This document shows, piece by piece, positions 7,220-21,007 of a stretch of 52,026 nt of DNA. This DNA is from Minisyncoccota bacterium. GTDB taxonomy: Bacteria; Patescibacteriota; Minisyncoccia; JAHIHE01; JAGLIN01. Location: positions 84,452-136,477 of the forward strand of contig JAQVBZ010000001.1 in assembly GCA_028690055.1 (NCBI GenBank), given 5' to 3'. The stretch's first letter is position 1. Every line of letters begins with the position of its first letter. The notes below the pieces were generated by a model, which had not been told where the DNA came from, did not search any database, and was given only the letters and a program-made list of their open reading frames with translations. Position numbers and translations under genes: made by a program.

Positions 7220-7389
7220 GTCATTGCGAGCTGTAGGGGCACAATATCTTGTGCCCTTTCCGACGCGGCAATCTCGTGAGAAAAATCACAAGACTTTATT
7301 ATCACACATTTTATCCGCATAGCGACGGGATTTCCATCCCCGTCTCCGCGAGGACAGACTATATTACAGCGCCTCCTCCTTACAATGAC
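7220..7389. repeat. Intergenic palindromic element
   Basis: gtcattgcgag … cttacaatgac termini. Confidence 0.5.
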
Positions 7390-7585
7390 AAGCAATTAAC
7401 CGACTTTTGTCATTGTCCCAGATCCAAGACGCTACGTCTCTACGGCCTATTTTTGTTTGCCATCCGATGGATTTGGGATTAGAATGTATATATATTAAGC
7501 ATCTTGAAAAATAGCCAAACGTGCTTTCGGATGGTTCCGGAAGAGGACGGTTTAAAGATATTTTTATTCATAAAATATAAAAGGT

Positions 7586-8740
7586 ATGAAAAATAATATC
7601 CAAATCCAAACGTTGACTAAAGATGTTATAGAAAAGCTGACAAAAGAGAAGAAGACCAAGGATTGGGCGGTGAGTTTTTATCTGGGTATAAAAGGGGATG
7701 AGAATTTTCTTGCTACAGCAAACTCTGCTCTTTCGGAAGGTGAGAAGAAAATCGAGGAAGGGGGAATTTTTAGCGAGTCGGAACGCAAGCAGATTCGGCA
7801 GGCCTTTGTAGAGATTGAGAAGATTATCCGTTACTACCGACTAACCGATCGTACGCAGACACTGGTGATATTTTTCGCCGATGGTGGACAGAAAGAAATT
7901 TATAAAATGCCGGTCTATATCCCGACCAAGATGATTGTGGAACGGGATTTTTATGTGCATCCTTTCTTCAAGATGCTTGGGAAATATCCGCGCTATTGCG
8001 TCTCTTTTTTGGAGCGTGACCGAGCGCGGATTTTTGATCTTTTCTGGGGGGAGATAGAGCATAAGGAGAAAGAGATCCAAAGTGAAGTGCCACAGAGAAT
8101 GAATGCGGCGCGCGCAACTTGGAAGGGGTTGGAGGAGCGCAAAATCCAGAATCACATCGAGATCCATATCGATCGTCACTTACAAAAAGTAGCACGTTCT
8201 GTCGAAGATTATATGGACGAGAACCGAATTCCTTATCTTGTTATCGGGTCGCGCAAGGAGCTGATCGAGCGCTTCAAAGAATTCCTTCCTAAGCGGTTAC
8301 AGAGAAAAATAGTCGGGTCGTATCTTATACGCAGTGATCAAGACATACAACGGATAAAGAAGAGAAGTCTGAAGGTGATAGCGGATTTTGAATTTGAGAA
8401 AGAAAGAGAAATCATTTTGCAAATCTTTGACGGTAAAGATAAGAAGATAAAGGAATCTGTGGCGGGAGTGGAAGATGTTCTTATCGCTCTTTATAATTAT
8501 AAGATACGTACCTTGGTAATCGGTAAAAATTATCAATCGGCGGGTTTTGTCTGTCCGAATGATCACCGTATTTTATTGGGAGAAGAGGCGTGCCCTTTGT
8601 GTTCTGCCATCGGCGAAGAAGTGAGCGATATCACAGATGAGATTATCGAAGAAGCGATAATGCAGAAGATGAAAATCGTCCATTTCCAGTCCGCTCATGA
8701 AGACTTCGATCACTTCGGTATCGGAGCTATCTTGAAATAG
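7586..8740 (+). CDS. baeRF/VLRF1-like (eRF1-superfamily) protein with C-terminal eRF1 domain 3-like region
   Basis: …RIFDLFWGEIEH…; VEDVLIALYNYKIRTLVIGKNYQSAGFVCPNDHRILLGEEACPLC…DITDEIIEEAI. Confidence 0.75.
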   Translation: MKNNIQIQTLTKDVIEKLTKEKKTKDWAVSFYLGIKGDENFLATANSALSEGEKKIEEGGIFSESERKQIRQAFVEIEKIIRYYRLTDRTQTLVIFFADGGQKEIYKMPVYIPTKMIVERDFYVHPFFKMLGKYPRYCVSFLERDRARIFDLFWGEIEHKEKEIQSEVPQRMNAARATWKGLEERKIQNHIEIHIDRHLQKVARSVEDYMDENRIPYLVIGSRKELIERFKEFLPKRLQRKIVGSYLIRSDQDIQRIKKRSLKVIADFEFEKEREIILQIFDGKDKKIKESVAGVEDVLIALYNYKIRTLVIGKNYQSAGFVCPNDHRILLGEEACPLCSAIGEEVSDITDEIIEEAIMQKMKIVHFQSAHEDFDHFGIGAILK

Positions 8741-11828: not shown

Positions 11829-11899
11829 TCGGGGATCGTCTAATGGTAGGACGACAGGTTTTGATCCTGTTAATCGGGGTTCGAATCCCTGTCCCCGAA
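11829..11899 (+). tRNA. tRNA-Gln (anticodon TTG)
   Basis: Cloverleaf: acceptor TCGGGGA/TCCCCGA, anticodon stem ACAGG/CCTGT with loop TTTTGAT, T-loop TTCGAAT; no encoded CCA. Confidence 0.95.
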
Positions 11900-11946
11900 C
11901 AAACACATAAAAACAGTCTTTTTTTAAGACTGTTTTTATGTGTTTG
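11900..11946. terminator. Perfect 21-bp inverted repeat, probable bidirectional terminator
   Basis: caaacacataaaaacagtctt-ttttt-aagactgtttttatgtgtttg. Confidence 0.8.
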
Positions 11947-12250: not shown

Positions 12251-13738
12251 ATGGATACTAAAGTAAATATTTCGCAACTTGAACAGCATTTAGCTAAAGC
12301 CGCTTGGATTTTAAAAGGTCCTGTAGATGCGGCTGATTTTAAAGTGTATATTTTCCCACTTCTTTTCTTTAAACGCATATCTGATGTATATGACGAGGAG
12401 TATAAGATAGCGTTTGAGGAATCAAAAGGTGATGAAAGCTATGCTCAATTAGATGAATTCCATCGATTTATCATTCCAGAAGGGTGCCATTTTAGAGATG
12501 TGCGTGCGACTACGACGAATGTCGGACAGGCTTTGCAATATGCATTCAGAGAAATTGAAAAGGCAAATCAGAAATATTTGTATGGTATCTTCGGTGATGC
12601 GCAGTGGACGAATAAAGAAAAACTTTCTGACAGACTGCTTATTGATCTTATCGAGCATTTTTCGAATATCGAACTTTGCGATTCTTGCGTGGAATCTGAT
12701 GTGCTGGGACAGGCATATGAATATCTCATAAAGCAGTTTGCCGACCTTACAAATAAAAAGGCTGGAGAATTCTATACTCCACGCTCAGTCGTTCATTTGA
12801 TGGGAAAGATAATCGATCCGAAAGAAGGTGAATCAATTTATGATCCGGCTTGCGGAACAGGGGGAATGCTTTTGGAGTGTACGCAGCATCTTCAAAAAGA
12901 AGACAAAGACTATCGCACGCTTAAAATTTATGGGCAGGAAAAAAATCTGACAACTTCATCTATTGCCCGGATGAATATGTTTTTGCACGGCATAGAAGAT
13001 TTTCAAATTGTCCGGGGTGATACGCTTCGCAACCCTGCTTTTTATGAGGGCGATGAGCTCGCAACCTTTGACTGTGTGATCGCCAATCCTCCTTTTTCGC
13101 TAAAAAAATGGGGAGATGATTTATGGATTAAAGATCCGTACGGAAGAAATTTTGCAGGCGTACCGCCAACAGGAAACGGTGATCTTGCCTGGGTGCAGCA
13201 CATGGTAAAATCAATGGCATATCCGAATGGGCGTATTGCTGTTGTGCTTCCGCATGGAGCTCTTTTTCGCAAAGGGCGTGAGGGGCAAATCCGCAAGAAA
13301 TTGCTTGAAATGGATATTCTTGAGACTGTCATTGGACTTGGTTCAAATATTTTTTATGGCGCAACTCTTGCGGCCTGCATTCTTGTATTTAGAGCTAATA
13401 AACCAGATGAAAAACAGAAGAAAGTTCTATTTATTGATGCTGCAGATCAGGTGCGTATAGGACGAGCTCAAAATTATCTGGAGACGGAACATATTGATAG
13501 AATTTTCAAATGGTACACGGATTTTGAGAACGTAGAAAATTATGTAAGAGTTGCAACTTTGAAAGATATTGAAAAAAATGATTTTAATCTCAATATTCCG
13601 CTATATGTAGAGAAGAAGGTCGAAGATAATTTGCCGTCAGTGGAAGAAGCGACACGGGGCCTCAAAGAAGCCCTTGCGGAGACGTGGGAGGCCGAAGAAA
13701 AGCTCAAAAAATTACTCAAAGAATTTTCATTATTATAA
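12251..13738 (+). CDS. hsdM: Type I restriction-modification methyltransferase subunit (copy 1)
   Basis: AGEFYTPRSVVHLM, DPACGTGGML, GQEKN, IANPPFSLKKW. Confidence 0.95.
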   Translation: MDTKVNISQLEQHLAKAAWILKGPVDAADFKVYIFPLLFFKRISDVYDEEYKIAFEESKGDESYAQLDEFHRFIIPEGCHFRDVRATTTNVGQALQYAFREIEKANQKYLYGIFGDAQWTNKEKLSDRLLIDLIEHFSNIELCDSCVESDVLGQAYEYLIKQFADLTNKKAGEFYTPRSVVHLMGKIIDPKEGESIYDPACGTGGMLLECTQHLQKEDKDYRTLKIYGQEKNLTTSSIARMNMFLHGIEDFQIVRGDTLRNPAFYEGDELATFDCVIANPPFSLKKWGDDLWIKDPYGRNFAGVPPTGNGDLAWVQHMVKSMAYPNGRIAVVLPHGALFRKGREGQIRKKLLEMDILETVIGLGSNIFYGATLAACILVFRANKPDEKQKKVLFIDAADQVRIGRAQNYLETEHIDRIFKWYTDFENVENYVRVATLKDIEKNDFNLNIPLYVEKKVEDNLPSVEEATRGLKEALAETWEAEEKLKKLLKEFSLL

Positions 13739-13740
13739 AT

Positions 13741-15201
13741 ATGGCCATTAAAACACAAGATCTAGAAAAATATCTTTGGGGCGCTGCCACTTTACTTCGC
13801 GGTGTGATTGATGCCGGGGATTACAAGCAGTATATTTTTCCGATTCTTTTCTATAAACGCATCTGCGACGTATATGATGAAGAAAGCGAGCGAGCTATCA
13901 AAGAAGTTGGTGGCGATTTTGCTGAAAACCATCGTTTTCAGGTTCCCGAAGGAGCACATTGGAACGACGTGCGCCAGGTGACGGTGAATGTCGGTCAGGC
14001 CCTTCAAAACGCACTTCGTGAAATCGAAAAAGCTAATCAGGATACGCTTTATGGTATTTTCGGTGACGCTTCATGGACGAACAAAGACCGTCTTTCGGAT
14101 GGAATACTAACCAATCTTCTCGAGCATTTTTCAGAGCAAAGTTTGAGCATCGCCAACGTTCCCAATGATGAACTGGGCGTTGCTTATGAATATCTTATCA
14201 AAAAATTTGCCGATGATAGTGGCCACACTGCCGCAGAATTTTATACTAATCGCACCGTGGTGCATTTGATGACACTCATTATGGATCCGCAGCCAGGAGA
14301 AAGCATCTATGACCCGACTTGCGGTTCCGGAGGATTGCTTTTAAATTGCGTCAATCATCTCAAAGAGAGGCACAAAGAATATCGCACTCTCAAACTCTAC
14401 GGACAAGAACTTAATCTGATGACTTCTTCCATCGCTCGTATGAATATGTTTTTGCACGGCATAGAAGATTTTCATATTGTCCGGGGCGATACTTTGGCGC
14501 AGCCAAAATTTCTGGAAAATGACAGATTGAAAACTTTTGATGTGATTCTTGCTAATCCTCCTTATTCAATCAAGCGTTGGAATAGAGATGCTTGGACAAA
14601 TGATCCGTATGGACGGAATATGTATGGCACGCCGTCACAGGGATGTGCTGATTATGCATTTGAACAGCATATTATAAAAAGCCTTGATCCGAAGCGGGGG
14701 AGGAGCATTGTGCTTTGGCCACACGGAGTATTGTTTCGAGATGCTGAAAAGATATTTCGAGAAAAAATGCTTCAGGACGATGTGGTTGAAGCAGTGATAG
14801 GGCTCGGACCGAATCTTTTTTATAATTCTCCGATGGAGGCGTGTCTTTTGGTGACCAATCTTAATAAACCAAAAGAGCGCAAAGGAAAAGTGATTTTTAT
14901 AAACGCAGTAAAAGAAGTTACTCGACAGAATGCCAATTCTGTTCTTGAAGAAAAACACATTAAAAAAATTTACGAAGCATATAAAGAATTTAAAGATATA
15001 GAAGGTTTTGCATGCGTGCTTTCCAATGAAGATATTATAAAGAACAATGCTAACCTCAATATTTCACTTTATGTCTCAAATAACGACGACAATAAAGAAA
15101 CAAAGAAACTTCCGGTTATTGTTGCGGAGTGGATTGAGAGTAGTGAAAAGCTGAAGAAAAGCACAAGTGAATTATTTGATATTTTAGAAAACAAATCATG
15201 A
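13741..15201 (+). CDS. hsdM: Type I restriction-modification methyltransferase subunit (copy 2, paralog)
   Basis: AAEFYTNRTVVHLM, DPTCGSGGLL, GQELN, LANPPYSIKRW; start ATG 13741 (track start 13684 is upstream, overlapping copy 1). Confidence 0.93.
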   Translation: MAIKTQDLEKYLWGAATLLRGVIDAGDYKQYIFPILFYKRICDVYDEESERAIKEVGGDFAENHRFQVPEGAHWNDVRQVTVNVGQALQNALREIEKANQDTLYGIFGDASWTNKDRLSDGILTNLLEHFSEQSLSIANVPNDELGVAYEYLIKKFADDSGHTAAEFYTNRTVVHLMTLIMDPQPGESIYDPTCGSGGLLLNCVNHLKERHKEYRTLKLYGQELNLMTSSIARMNMFLHGIEDFHIVRGDTLAQPKFLENDRLKTFDVILANPPYSIKRWNRDAWTNDPYGRNMYGTPSQGCADYAFEQHIIKSLDPKRGRSIVLWPHGVLFRDAEKIFREKMLQDDVVEAVIGLGPNLFYNSPMEACLLVTNLNKPKERKGKVIFINAVKEVTRQNANSVLEEKHIKKIYEAYKEFKDIEGFACVLSNEDIIKNNANLNISLYVSNNDDNKETKKLPVIVAEWIESSEKLKKSTSELFDILENKS

Positions 15202-15866
15202 TAACACCGTCTGTCTCATTGAATGAGTTTTTAATTTCTATCTTGCCCGGAGGAACAATCCTTTCTGTTGTCCTTGCAACTTTGATTTTTCGTGATCCTA
15301 ATATTTTCAAACCGTTTGAAAGTCTAGATGTTTTATCTATATTTTTGTTTTTGTCTGGTTCGTTTATTATTGCTGAAATGCTTCAGACGATAGCTCATAT
15401 GTGTGAGAAGATAATCGATTTGCTATTTTTTAAAGGCTATAGGCCTTCGGATATTTTTTTACTGCCGAATAATCCAATTGTTAACAATGAACTTGTCAGG
15501 AGAGATTTGTTAGAAAAATTAAATATAACCAAGGACCAAGAGAACAGTTTTGTAAACTATAAAGAAATCCCTTTTAGAATTTATAGAAATAAGAAGATCA
15601 GTTATATCGACATAAATAAAAAATGTTTTTGGAAGATGTATACACAATGCAGAAATGAGGCGCATATTAAAGATTCGAATGCTAGGTATTTATTTACAAG
15701 AGTGATGTTTGTTGTCTTTGTATTTCTGTCTATCTGGTTTCTAAAGTACAGCGCCAGCTGGCTGTTATTTTGCAGTATAGCTTTTGCTTTACTGTTTATG
15801 TGGCGCGTCCGGGGATGTGCTCGAGGCTTAGTATTTGCTGTTGCTAATAAATATTTAGATATTTGA
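15198..15866 (+). CDS. Membrane protein within the type I RM operon
   Basis: 222 aa with about four hydrophobic segments; ATGA overlap with hsdM copy 2. Confidence 0.8.
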   Translation: MITPSVSLNEFLISILPGGTILSVVLATLIFRDPNIFKPFESLDVLSIFLFLSGSFIIAEMLQTIAHMCEKIIDLLFFKGYRPSDIFLLPNNPIVNNELVRRDLLEKLNITKDQENSFVNYKEIPFRIYRNKKISYIDINKKCFWKMYTQCRNEAHIKDSNARYLFTRVMFVVFVFLSIWFLKYSASWLLFCSIAFALLFMWRVRGCARGLVFAVANKYLDI

Positions 15867-15867
15867 T

Positions 15868-16752
15868 ATGAAAATTATTATTTTTGATGTTTCTAACGGA
15901 GACTGTATGTTGGCGGTTTGCGCTAACGGAAATGCGATGATGATTGACTGTGGTAATAATGGAGAAAAGGAATGTCCTGTAGATTTAATAGAAAGGAATG
16001 AATACGATCTTCTTAATTGGTCTGGACTTAAACCCTGCGAAAATGGCGGTAAATTAGCATTGCTGCACATTACACATCCGGACGACGATCATACAAAAAA
16101 TGTGGTAAAAGTTAGAGACGTATTGAGACCTAGGTTTATGTGTAAAAGAGATTACGACACTCAATTTCCTGAAGATGTACAGAATAAAATTGATGATGAA
16201 TATAAAAGTGTATGCAAACAATACAGGGATAGAAACCATGGAATAGAGCTGAATTGGGGTTTTGATGAGAATAGGACTTTTGAAATACCCATGGAAGTTG
16301 TCCTCCAGAATGAGGGAATGTTTGCTAAAGTAAAGAATAACTCTAGCATTTTAAGATTGGTAAGCTATAAGGGGGTAAGAGTTTTGTTTGGTGGAGATAT
16401 GGAAACAGCTGGATGGGAGTGGCTACTACAGAACAACCATCAAAATTTTAAGGATGAAATTTCGAGAGGGATTCATATATTTATGGCTTCTCATCATGGT
16501 CATAACTCTGGGTTTTCTAGCGAGTTATTTAAAACAATGGGCAAGCCACATATAATTTTATCAAAGGGCAGCGAAGCAGAGAAAGAAGAAACCGATGTTT
16601 CTAGTCAATATTCAGCACTGTCTTTACCAATGGCTTATTCTACTTTGGGAAGGAATTCGGCTATTGCGAATATTCTAACAACGAGGCAAAACGGCCATAT
16701 ATTTATAGAGGTAGATAATGGAGGTAATATTCAATTCACGACAGAAAAATAG
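15868..16752 (+). CDS. MBL-fold (ComEC/Rec2-like) hydrolase within the RM operon
   Basis: MMIDCGNNG, LLHITHPDDDHTKN, VLFGGDM, MASHHGHNSG. Confidence 0.85.
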   Translation: MKIIIFDVSNGDCMLAVCANGNAMMIDCGNNGEKECPVDLIERNEYDLLNWSGLKPCENGGKLALLHITHPDDDHTKNVVKVRDVLRPRFMCKRDYDTQFPEDVQNKIDDEYKSVCKQYRDRNHGIELNWGFDENRTFEIPMEVVLQNEGMFAKVKNNSSILRLVSYKGVRVLFGGDMETAGWEWLLQNNHQNFKDEISRGIHIFMASHHGHNSGFSSELFKTMGKPHIILSKGSEAEKEETDVSSQYSALSLPMAYSTLGRNSAIANILTTRQNGHIFIEVDNGGNIQFTTEK

Positions 16753-16769
16753 TTTAACATTTCAATATA

Positions 16770-17984
16770 ATGCAAAGTTTCACTTCTAAAAATTTAGCAA
16801 AATTAGATAGATCCACTTGGGAAGTGGTGCGTTTTGGTGATGTTGTAAAAGAAGTTAGAGAAACATCACAAGATCATATCGCGGATGGAATTGATCATGT
16901 TGTTGGACTTGAACATCTTTCTCCGCTTGATATACATATTCGCTCTTGGGGGAATATTGCTAACAGTACGACTTTTTCGCGTAGATTCAGAAAAGGACAA
17001 GTGCTTTTTGGTCGTAGGCGTGCTTATCAGAGAAAAGCTGCAATTGCTAATTTTGATGGTATTTGCTCGGGAGATATCATAGTTATGGAGGCAATCGAGG
17101 ATAAACTTGATCCGAATTTGCTATCTTTTTTGGTGCATAGCGAAGGATTTTATAATTGGGCAGTAAGTACTTCTGCGGGATCTCTTTCCCCAAGAACAAA
17201 ATTTAAAAGTTTAGCTGAGTATGAATTTCGTCTTCCGCCAAGAGATGTGCAGAAAAAACTTGCTGAGTTACTTTGGGTAGTGGATGAAGTAAGAGAGTCG
17301 TTGGTATTATCGATGAAAAGGATAACAAAATATAAGAAAATTTCAATTAAAAATTTATATTCTTGTGGAATAGGTCATGTCAAATTTAAGGATACTGAAA
17401 TAGGAATAATTCCAGAGGAGTGGAATGTTGTTAAATTATCTGAAGTTGCAGATGTTAGTACTGGAAATTCTGCTCCTCAAAGTCCAGATTATTTTAAAAA
17501 TGGTGCGTATCCATTTTGCAGAACATCTGATGTTGGAAGAGTCCATATTTCTGAAAATTTAACTGATATTGCTGATTACCTTAATGAGCAAGGAATAAAA
17601 GGTTTGAATCTTTTTAAAAAAGGAACTATCTTGATTCCCAAAAGCGGTGCATCCACTTTTTTGAATCATAGAGTCGTTCTTGGCATAGATAGTTATGTTT
17701 CTAGTCATTTGGCTACAGTTTTAGCAGATGATAAAAAAATTATTACTAAATATTTGTTTAATATTGTATGTTTTATTGATGCTCGAAACCTAACAAATAA
17801 CCCAGATTATCCATCTCTGAGAACGGAAAATATAAAAGAAATTAAAGTAGCATTGCCAAAAATAAACGAACAAAAAGCTATTGTTGAAATAATAGATAAA
17901 ATTGATAATTCATTAGAAGCGATTAAAAATAATATAAAAAGTATCGAAAATTTAAGAAATGTAATAATCAATTCAATATTTTAA
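16770..17984 (+). CDS. hsdS: Type I restriction-modification specificity subunit
   Basis: Two target-recognition-like repeats (ExW.VvrfgdV…, EEWNVVKLSEVADVSTGNSAPQSPDYFKNGAYPFCRTSDV…). Confidence 0.92.
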   Translation: MQSFTSKNLAKLDRSTWEVVRFGDVVKEVRETSQDHIADGIDHVVGLEHLSPLDIHIRSWGNIANSTTFSRRFRKGQVLFGRRRAYQRKAAIANFDGICSGDIIVMEAIEDKLDPNLLSFLVHSEGFYNWAVSTSAGSLSPRTKFKSLAEYEFRLPPRDVQKKLAELLWVVDEVRESLVLSMKRITKYKKISIKNLYSCGIGHVKFKDTEIGIIPEEWNVVKLSEVADVSTGNSAPQSPDYFKNGAYPFCRTSDVGRVHISENLTDIADYLNEQGIKGLNLFKKGTILIPKSGASTFLNHRVVLGIDSYVSSHLATVLADDKKIITKYLFNIVCFIDARNLTNNPDYPSLRTENIKEIKVALPKINEQKAIVEIIDKIDNSLEAIKNNIKSIENLRNVIINSIF

Positions 17985-17988
17985 ATAT

Positions 17989-20961
17989 ATGCCATTCAAT
18001 GAGCAAAATACAATCGAACATCTTGTCTTACACGAGCTTACGGGTGTAAGCTTGGAGGATCTCAAAAACCAGAATTATCACGCGCCGGAATCGGCGTTGC
18101 AGGCCGGGTCGGGGAAGTGGCAATATGTGCCGACTGTGCAGCTTAAGCGCGAGGTAACAGATGTGATTGTGGAATCGCTTCTCAAGGATGCCCTGGTACG
18201 ACTCAATCCAGAAATTGCCGCTGATCCAAGCAAAGCTGACGAAGTTTTATATAAGCTTCGGGCTATTTTACTTTCTGTGCAACACTCCGGTTTAGTTCGT
18301 GCCAATGAAGAATTTTCCGCTTGGATCAAGGGTGAAAAGACTATGCCCTTTGGCGAAAACAATCAGCACACTGATGTGAAGCTGATCGATTTTGAACATC
18401 CGGAAAATAACAGCCTTATTATCACTAATCAATACACTCTGCGAACTTCGGTAGAAAAACGTCCCGATATGGTTATGCTGGTAAATGGCATTCCTTTGGT
18501 GGTGGGGGAATTCAAGACTCCGGTGCGGCCGGCTATCTCTTGGCTAGATGGGGCAATAGATATTCACGATGATTATGAAAAAACTATTGCGCCGCTTTTT
18601 GTTCCGAATGTATTTAGTTTTTCAACCGAAGGAAAAACCTTTCGTTATGGATCTGTCAGGATGCCTCTTGAACTCTGGGGCCCATGGAGAGAAACTGGAA
18701 GCGGCACAAATGGGCTTTCGGAAATCAAGCAGGCGCTCTCCGGAATGTTGAAACCTGAAGTCATTTTGGATATGCTACAAAATTATACGCTTTTTGCGAC
18801 TGATAAAAGCAAACAGCGCATAAAAATTATTGCCCGCTATCAGCAATATGAAGGCGCGAATCTCATTGTTCGGCGTGTGAAAGAAGGACATATTAAAAAG
18901 GGTCTTATCTGGCATTTTCAGGGTTCCGGTAAATCGCTTTTGATGGTGTTCGCAGCACAGAAGTTACGCCGCGATCAAGAGCTGAAAAGTCCAACCGTGC
19001 TTATTGTCGTGGATCGAGTTGATCTGGATACACAGATTACTGGGACTTTTAATGCGACTGATATTCCAAATGTGGTTTCAGCTAATGATCAATCAGAATT
19101 GCAAGGGCTACTTGGCAATGATACACGAAAGATTATTATTACAACCATTTTCAAATTTGCGGAGGCTGACGGAGTCTTGAATGATCGTGAAAATATCATT
19201 GCTTTAGTTGATGAGGCGCACCGTACTCAGGAAGGTGATCTTGGGAGAAAGATGCGCGCTGCGCTTCCCAATGCTTTTTTGTTTGGGTTAACTGGAACGC
19301 CAATTAACAGAGCTGATCGAAATACTTTTTGGGCATTTGGTGCTGAGGAGGACGAAGGCGGATATATGACTCGTTATACTTTTCAAGATTCAATCAGAGA
19401 TAAGGCAACGCTTCCGCTTCATTTTGAACCTAGACTGTTGGATGTGCATGTGGCAAAAGAGCTTATCGATGCGGAATTTGATTTGATGACCAAAGAACTT
19501 TCTGAAAAGGATAAAACGAGTTTAATCCAAAAAGCGGCAAAGATGTCAGCATTTTTGAAAACACCAGCCAGGGTGGAAATGATTGTGAAAGATATTGTGA
19601 AGCATTTTAATGATAAAGTTGATCCGTATGCGTTCAAGGCGATGATTGTGACGCCGGATCGCTATGCGTGTGACCAGTACAAGCAAGAGCTGGATAAAAT
19701 TATGCCCTCGGAAGCAAGCGCTGTTGTAATTTCAACTGGCGGTAAGGGAGAAGAAGATACCAAGCTCAAGGAAAAATATAAGATAACGAAAGAAGAACAG
19801 GAGAGGCTGCTTGATAACTTCCGCGATCCGCAACACCCACTCAAATTTCTAATTGTGACAGCAAAACTTTTGACCGGATTTGATGCGCCGATACTGCAAT
19901 GTATGTATCTCGATAAGTCGATGAAAGATCATAATTTATTACAGGCAATTTGTAGAACGAATCGTGTTTACAAAGACAAAATGCACGGACTCATCGTTGA
20001 TTATTATGGAGTATTTGATGATGTCGCTAAAGCTCTTGAATTTGACGATGCGAGTGTTCGTTATGTCATTACTAATATTAATGAACTCAAAGGTAAGCTG
20101 AAGCTTGCGATAGATCAGTGTTTGACTCACTTTTATGGCATTGATAGGACAATAGTTGGCTACGAAGGACTGCTCCTGGCACAGGAATGTTTGAATACCA
20201 ATGAGAAGAGAGACGCGTTCGCCGCTGATTATGATTTGGTTGCTGATATATGGGAAGCTGTTTCGCCAGATCCAATATTGGATACTTTTCAAAAAGAATA
20301 CTCATGGCTTTCGCAGGTGTATGAGTCGGTAAAACCTGCGTCGGGAGATACTGGAAGATTACTCTGGCATGCACTGGGCGTGCAGACAATGAAATTGATT
20401 CATGAGTATATTCAGGTTGATAAAGTGAATGACAATCTTGAAAAAATAGTCCTTGATGCCGAGGTTATTGAGGATCTTATGCAAAAAACTGACAAGAAAA
20501 AAATAAAGTTAATCGAAGTAGAAATTGGAAAAAGATTGGCCGGACACAGGAGTGATCCTCGGTTTATTGAGCTAGGTGCAAAACTTGAAGAATTACGTGA
20601 TAAAGCAGAGAGGGGACTGATTAATAGTATCGAATTTTTGAAAGAGTTAATTCAGATTGCAAAAGAAACTGTCGAGATTGAAAAAGAAGTTGATTCCGAA
20701 GAACATCGTGATAATGTAAAATCTGCACTTACCGAATTATTCTTGGAAATGAAAACAGACCAAACTCCGGCTATCGTGGAGCGCATAGTAAATGACATCG
20801 ATGAGATTGTAAAAATAGTAAGGTTTCCGGGATGGCAAAATACTGCGGCGGGAGAAAGAGAGATTAAACAGTCTTTGAGGAAGACACTGTTTAAATATGC
20901 TTTACATAAAGAAAATGCGCTTTTTGATAAGGCGTATGAGTATATTAGGCAATATTATTAA
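17989..20961 (+). CDS. hsdR: Type I restriction endonuclease subunit
   Basis: VVGEFKTPVRP nuclease motif, HFQGSGKSLLM Walker A, LVDEAHRTQEGDLG, LTGTPI, LLTGFDAPILQCMYLDKSMKDHNLLQAICRTNR. Confidence 0.97.
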   Translation: MPFNEQNTIEHLVLHELTGVSLEDLKNQNYHAPESALQAGSGKWQYVPTVQLKREVTDVIVESLLKDALVRLNPEIAADPSKADEVLYKLRAILLSVQHSGLVRANEEFSAWIKGEKTMPFGENNQHTDVKLIDFEHPENNSLIITNQYTLRTSVEKRPDMVMLVNGIPLVVGEFKTPVRPAISWLDGAIDIHDDYEKTIAPLFVPNVFSFSTEGKTFRYGSVRMPLELWGPWRETGSGTNGLSEIKQALSGMLKPEVILDMLQNYTLFATDKSKQRIKIIARYQQYEGANLIVRRVKEGHIKKGLIWHFQGSGKSLLMVFAAQKLRRDQELKSPTVLIVVDRVDLDTQITGTFNATDIPNVVSANDQSELQGLLGNDTRKIIITTIFKFAEADGVLNDRENIIALVDEAHRTQEGDLGRKMRAALPNAFLFGLTGTPINRADRNTFWAFGAEEDEGGYMTRYTFQDSIRDKATLPLHFEPRLLDVHVAKELIDAEFDLMTKELSEKDKTSLIQKAAKMSAFLKTPARVEMIVKDIVKHFNDKVDPYAFKAMIVTPDRYACDQYKQELDKIMPSEASAVVISTGGKGEEDTKLKEKYKITKEEQERLLDNFRDPQHPLKFLIVTAKLLTGFDAPILQCMYLDKSMKDHNLLQAICRTNRVYKDKMHGLIVDYYGVFDDVAKALEFDDASVRYVITNINELKGKLKLAIDQCLTHFYGIDRTIVGYEGLLLAQECLNTNEKRDAFAADYDLVADIWEAVSPDPILDTFQKEYSWLSQVYESVKPASGDTGRLLWHALGVQTMKLIHEYIQVDKVNDNLEKIVLDAEVIEDLMQKTDKKKIKLIEVEIGKRLAGHRSDPRFIELGAKLEELRDKAERGLINSIEFLKELIQIAKETVEIEKEVDSEEHRDNVKSALTELFLEMKTDQTPAIVERIVNDIDEIVKIVRFPGWQNTAAGEREIKQSLRKTLFKYALHKENALFDKAYEYIRQYY

Positions 20962-20976: not shown

Positions 20977-21007
20977 TAAACAGACGTTTAAGTAGCGTCT
21001 GTTTTTA
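20977..21007. terminator. Terminator after hsdR
   Basis: aaacagacg…cgtctgttttt. Confidence 0.7.

Follow-up and report, generated by a model that had tools for sequence, protein, structure and literature searches.

A predicted PacII-type restriction operon with a candidate membrane protein and MBL-fold defence cassette in a Patescibacteria genome

The 52,026-nucleotide stretch of Minisyncoccota bacterium contig JAQVBZ010000001.1 analysed here (the window), from a bacterium with a tiny genome, carries, at 12251-20961 on the plus strand, a six-gene operon that we read as a PacII-type type I restriction-modification (RM) system with a self-contained two-gene defence cassette embedded in it, a reading to which we give a probability of roughly 70%. 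The genes follow the order M1-M2-TM-MBL-S-R, in which M1 and M2 are modification subunits (HsdM), TM is a four-segment transmembrane (TM) protein, MBL is a metallo-β-lactamase (MBL)-fold hydrolase, and S and R are the specificity (HsdS) and restriction/translocase (HsdR) subunits. Relatives of the TM and MBL pair are found inside unrelated restriction operons, which suggests that the cassette is portable and adds a second line of antiviral defence.

An initial annotation of this DNA had described six genes on one strand, joined by overlaps or short gaps, and both this arrangement and its coordinates are confirmed. Every open reading frame (ORF) is intact and the genes are tightly packed. The ATG of hsdM2 (13741-15201) lies 2 nt past the stop codon of hsdM1 (12251-13738), and the TM gene (15198-15866) overlaps the end of hsdM2 by 4 nt (ATGA). 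The MBL gene (15868-16752) follows after 1 nt, hsdS (16770-17984) after 17 nt and hsdR (17989-20961) after 4 nt. A probable intrinsic terminator on the same strand (20978-21004), with an 11-pair stem and a T-rich tail, closes the operon 16 nt past the hsdR stop. The intact ORFs, the recurrence of homologous pairs at other loci and the terminator past hsdR show that this layout is not a product of chance.

Assignment to the m6A/m4C class of type I systems

A non-canonical class of type I systems, present in many bacterial species, produces N6-methyladenine (m6A) through one modification subunit (M1, with AGEF/NPPF motifs) and N4-methylcytosine (m4C) through the other (M2, with AAEF/NPPY motifs) (PMC9613975). 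Judging from its subunit sequences, the window operon almost certainly belongs to this PacII-type class (M1M2S-R). Both modification genes are assigned to HsdM by Pfam, NCBIfam and PADLOC (N6_Mtase, 2.9e-104 for M1 and 6.9e-88 for M2), and their best PDB matches in phmmer searches are the two distinct HsdM subunits of PacII (PDB 7vru/7vs4), 7vru_A for M1 (6.8e-164) and 7vru_B for M2 (4.2e-188). The motifs named in the initial annotation, DPACGTGG and NPPF in M1 and DPTCGSGG and NPPY in M2, are present and stand alongside those of the class: M1 carries AGEF at 171, DPACGTGG at 198 and NPPF at 279, and M2 carries AAEF at 166 and NPPY at 274 (numbered from the translation start at 13735). M2 also has an arginine, within LLRG, that aligns with R29 of PacII, where M1 has a lysine. 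The two subunits are 53% identical and split onto two sides of a tree (support 99/99 for M2 and 84/14 for M1). M1 accompanies M2 in 80/80 genome loci fetched with M2, which come from Bacteroidota, Pseudomonadota, Omnitrophota, Patescibacteria and others.

As the class requires, the operon holds one S and one R gene. S, with two target-recognition domains (TRDs), matches Methylase_S in two stretches and PADLOC Specificity_I (1.3e-98), while R is an HsdR (TIGR00348, 2.3e-163) that is 78-87% identical to the R subunits of the Patescibacteria relatives L009-L012. The N-terminal TRD of S resembles TRD1 of PacII S (7vru_C, 2.8e-39) and retains the PacII RR, Y, Q and K contact residues, with H94 replaced by Asp. 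Because of this Asp the recognition target is not readable from S, and it probably differs from that of PacII. The second difference from PacII is the TM and MBL cassette between M2 and S.

The earlier proposal of a heterodimeric methylase is thus upheld by the PacII matches and motifs, with two amendments: the class is already known, and the expected mark is m6A and m4C on opposite strands rather than m6A alone. The presence of two hsdM genes was also considered as a novelty in itself and rejected, both genes being found in all 80 related loci of this known class. In the proposed mechanism M1 would methylate A on one strand and M2 would methylate C on the other, and S and R would restrict unmodified DNA. 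With this operon, m6A/m4C type I systems are seen in Patescibacteria as well.

A recurrent TM and MBL module in and around restriction operons

The sequence comparisons make it very probable that the TM and MBL genes form a real two-gene module. A family profile built from 14 MBL relatives separates the true family (192-326 bits) from the MBLs of ComEC and split ComEC (≤102 bits). Plasmids, Patescibacteria genomes and IMG/VR contigs all hold distant full-length relatives of the window MBL; in IMG/VR the profile finds 12 loci where a search with the single MBL sequence finds none, and matches in phage records are weak and partial only. The family is rare in the genome samples searched, occurring in 4/380 Patescibacteria, 2/396 Bacteroidota and 1/399 Pseudomonadota genomes. 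A multi-TM partner on the same strand, about 200-300 residues long and predicted to contain two to four TM segments, is encoded near the MBL in 21/24 true-family loci (of which L131 and L133 are near-identical). The partner is usually adjacent to the MBL, with one intervening gene in L131, L133 and L137, and the order of the two genes varies between loci. The exceptions are L122, which meets a contig end, L217, where the partner is two genes off, and L218, where the candidate has 472 residues and two TM segments. When 13 partners are combined into a profile, it recovers six more that were outside its training set (L137, L217, L144, L142, L138 and L141; 2e-9 to 1e-6). The module is mobile. In the plasmid search made with the window TM itself, no relatives were found.

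Seven Patescibacteria members, including the window, were found by MBL search alone, without selection for RM genes. The window member sits within an m6A/m4C type I operon, and L121 holds the pair in another type I operon (M-S-[MBL-TM]-R). Two further members fall in type III operons, L120 with the order N6_N4_Mtase (Mod)-MBL2-[MBL-TM]-ResIII, and L119, read from sequence at a contig end, with Mod, a 318-residue protein, [MBL-TM] and the start of a Res-like helicase. In L118 the pair comes directly after a type I operon (M-RelA-like-2TM-S-346aa-R-S24). The last two, L122 and L227, adjoin serine recombinases, and no partner is seen in L122. Outside Patescibacteria, the module lies with 6A-type ubiquitin-like genes in L219, related arrangements occur in L132, L134, L135, L217 and L218, and in L129 and L130 it accompanies defence or mobile genes. 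The suggestion in the initial annotation that the pair forms one coupled unit within a composite defence locus is supported by these neighbourhoods: the pair recurs in type I and type III operons, including the second type I locus (L121), its MBLs are not confined to stand-alone genes, and it shares its slot with defence genes.

We further note three of these loci in their own right. In the type III operon of L120, the MBL2 gene (7248-8165; G018) is a more distant second MBL gene that immediately precedes the family MBL. In the type I locus of L118, considered with L223 (1-1914; G006), RelA/SpoT-like and 2-TM genes lie between M and S and are followed downstream by an S24 peptidase, the TM and MBL genes and a phage integrase. 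In L219 (3262-8467; G839), a 6A-MBL enzyme and cap2_3 are directly followed by a 4-TM protein and a PDC-M48B-type MBL, so that this pair may be part of the 6A operon.

Function of the cassette and alternative explanations

The window MBL carries the HPDDDH (residues 70-75; 16075-16092), GGDM (175-178) and SHHGH (208-212; 16489-16503) motifs claimed for it initially. D74 and H75 of the first, a metal motif, are invariant in alignment A2, with D72 also invariant in A3, and H209, H210 and G211 are invariant in both. The protein matches PADLOC PDC-M48B (3e-21, with a second profile at 1.7e-20 over residues 2-282), as do 14/14 aligned family MBLs. Its AlphaFold2 model (pLDDT 70.8, pTM 0.77) has the MBL domain of ComEC as best Foldseek match (9ic4, 1.1e-12), and the family profile is also closest to this domain. 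Because the metal-site residues are kept and both model and profile point to the ComEC MBL domain, the likeliest activity is that of a metal-dependent nuclease or phosphodiesterase, which the 4-TM partner would hold at the membrane.

The TM protein has four hydrophobic segments (12-30, 43-61, 164-182 and 186-204) in a simple hydropathy scan, and a partner in L118 is 36% identical to it. The family profile ties it to the membrane proteins that accompany other PDC-M48B MBLs, and some of these proteins match Csx27, the accessory membrane protein of type VI-B1 CRISPR systems. The Csx27 matches are weak and concern 5/21 partners (best E 7.1e-7), one of which also matches PDC-M48A (1.5e-4).

Among known systems, PDC-M48 (A+B), itself a candidate system only, shares the MBL match and an adjacent small membrane partner, although no PDC-M48A profile matches the window TM, which belongs to the same profile family as the other partners. 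Unlike Csx27, the window TM protein comes without Cas13b or CRISPR and is paired with an MBL. The 6A-MBL ubiquitin-like anti-phage system has a related MBL fold, but the window lacks E1/E2/JAB genes, its operon lacks cap2_3, and its MBL scores 42.7 bits against a cut-off of 220.

We consider a defence role for the pair likely. The cassette would be co-transcribed with the RM operon and would serve as a second layer, in which the Csx27-like 4-TM protein brings the ComEC-like MBL nuclease or phosphodiesterase to the membrane; alternatively, the 4-TM protein may itself be the effector, under control of the MBL. Entering or replicating foreign DNA would then be destroyed, or the cell would be arrested when restriction fails. 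The nuclease or abortive role first put forward for the cassette is plausible, and the specific membrane-nuclease mechanism is offered tentatively, as somewhat less probable than not.

Several points weigh against reading the pair as a self-contained defence cassette of the RM operon. The anatomy is well supported, whereas the biochemical mechanism is something that we infer. The window TM gives no significant match in Pfam, NCBIfam, PDB or PADLOC, PDC-M48A and Csx27 included, which leaves its link to Csx27 to pass through relatives. Its structure model is poor (pLDDT 52.8), too poor for a structure search, and the substrate of the MBL may be DNA, RNA, a nucleotide or a lipid. Moreover, two of the seven Patescibacteria members (L122 and L227), together with plasmid, prophage and 6A-type loci, lie outside RM operons, and a functional link to restriction is for this reason not required.

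This last observation bears equally on the strongest alternative, in which the pair does not stand alone and is functionally coupled to restriction, sensing or processing RM products such as translocation stalls, cut ends or inhibition of the Ocr/ArdA type. Tight packing, independent occurrence between the M and R genes of type I and type III operons, and 4-nt overlaps in L120 and L121 would all be consistent with such coupling. So would the five of seven Patescibacteria members that are RM-embedded or RM-adjacent, a proportion with binomial p 6e-6 if 5% of genes were so placed, where 5% is an assumed ceiling rather than a measured background and the genomes are only partly independent of one another. 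However, many family members have no adjacent RM genes, and the same sites in RM operons also gather unrelated defence genes, and we regard coupling as rather unlikely. Less likely again, and put forward as speculation, is its broadest form: a Csx27-like 4-TM protein and MBL would serve type I and type III restriction systems alike as a membrane effector generally associated with RM, triggered once restriction is under way or has been blocked. Such RM systems would then be two-stage, with a cut followed by a membrane-linked nuclease or by arrest. The occurrence of one small module inside two unrelated RM types makes coupling between a membrane effector and restriction directly testable.

A toxin-antitoxin-like pair, with the 4-TM protein as a membrane (pore) toxin and the MBL as the enzyme that controls it, the two together stabilising the RM operon, appears improbable. 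It would account for a small membrane protein translationally coupled to its partner and for the AbiEii/DUF6577 and Fic-type genes in the same slot of sister operons, and Csx28, which like Csx27 is a type VI-B accessory, is a pore (PMC12669027). Nevertheless, the strong conservation of the MBL metal-site residues suggests that catalysis matters, and the changing order of TM and MBL genes is unusual for toxin-antitoxin pairs.

A split ComEC module for DNA uptake in competence, composed of a channel and an MBL nuclease, was rejected as very improbable: the profile and fold resemblance to ComEC and the small ComEC-like MBLs encoded in many Patescibacteria genomes speak for it, but a separate MBL next to a 10-TM ComEC-like gene (L126) is encoded elsewhere in this genome, the window MBL falls into another family (293 versus ≤102 bits), and its partner has four TM segments and no ComEC channel. 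The label "ComEC-like" given to the MBL at the outset consequently holds for its fold and not for its identity.

Exchange of cargo between conserved M and R genes

The preferred reading of an embedded defence cassette finds its context in the sister operons, which carry other genes at the position between M2 and S. In the closest operon (L010, Moraniibacteriota), whose M1, M2 and R are 82-87% identical to those of the window, this position holds an OLD-family nuclease, and it is empty in L009, L011 and L012. Bacteroidales operons fill it with RhuM, Schlafen, DUF6577+AbiEii or Fic genes, and other gaps of sister operons hold relatives of GmrSD, PtuA, TmtA and PD-Lambda-4. At least one extra gene, in any slot, is present in 63/80 m6A/m4C operons; the TM and MBL pair is present in none of these other 80. 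The GC content of TM (0.33), MBL (0.37) and S (0.33) is below that of the M genes (0.40-0.41) and R (0.42), as would follow from an exchange of cargo and S while the M and R genes around them stay conserved, and the same contrast is seen in L121 and L010. These operons are thus hubs for interchangeable defence cargo, and embedding in immune operons is a productive guide to new defences.

Some further features were noted. A pair of small genes (about 170-187 and 228-233 residues) recurs just before hsdR, in the S/R gap of ten Bacteroidota m6A/m4C operons (L017, L028, L029, L035, L040, L046, L048, L051, L056 and L064). Another type I hsdM lies in G000:C9 (L125, 7153-12665), separated by 2.9 kb from an hsdS-like gene beyond it; the interval contains three ORFs (481, 203 and 195 residues). 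Finally, a tRNA-Gln gene (anticodon ttg; 11829-11900) lies about 350 bases upstream of hsdM1 in the window and is a possible integration site of the operon.

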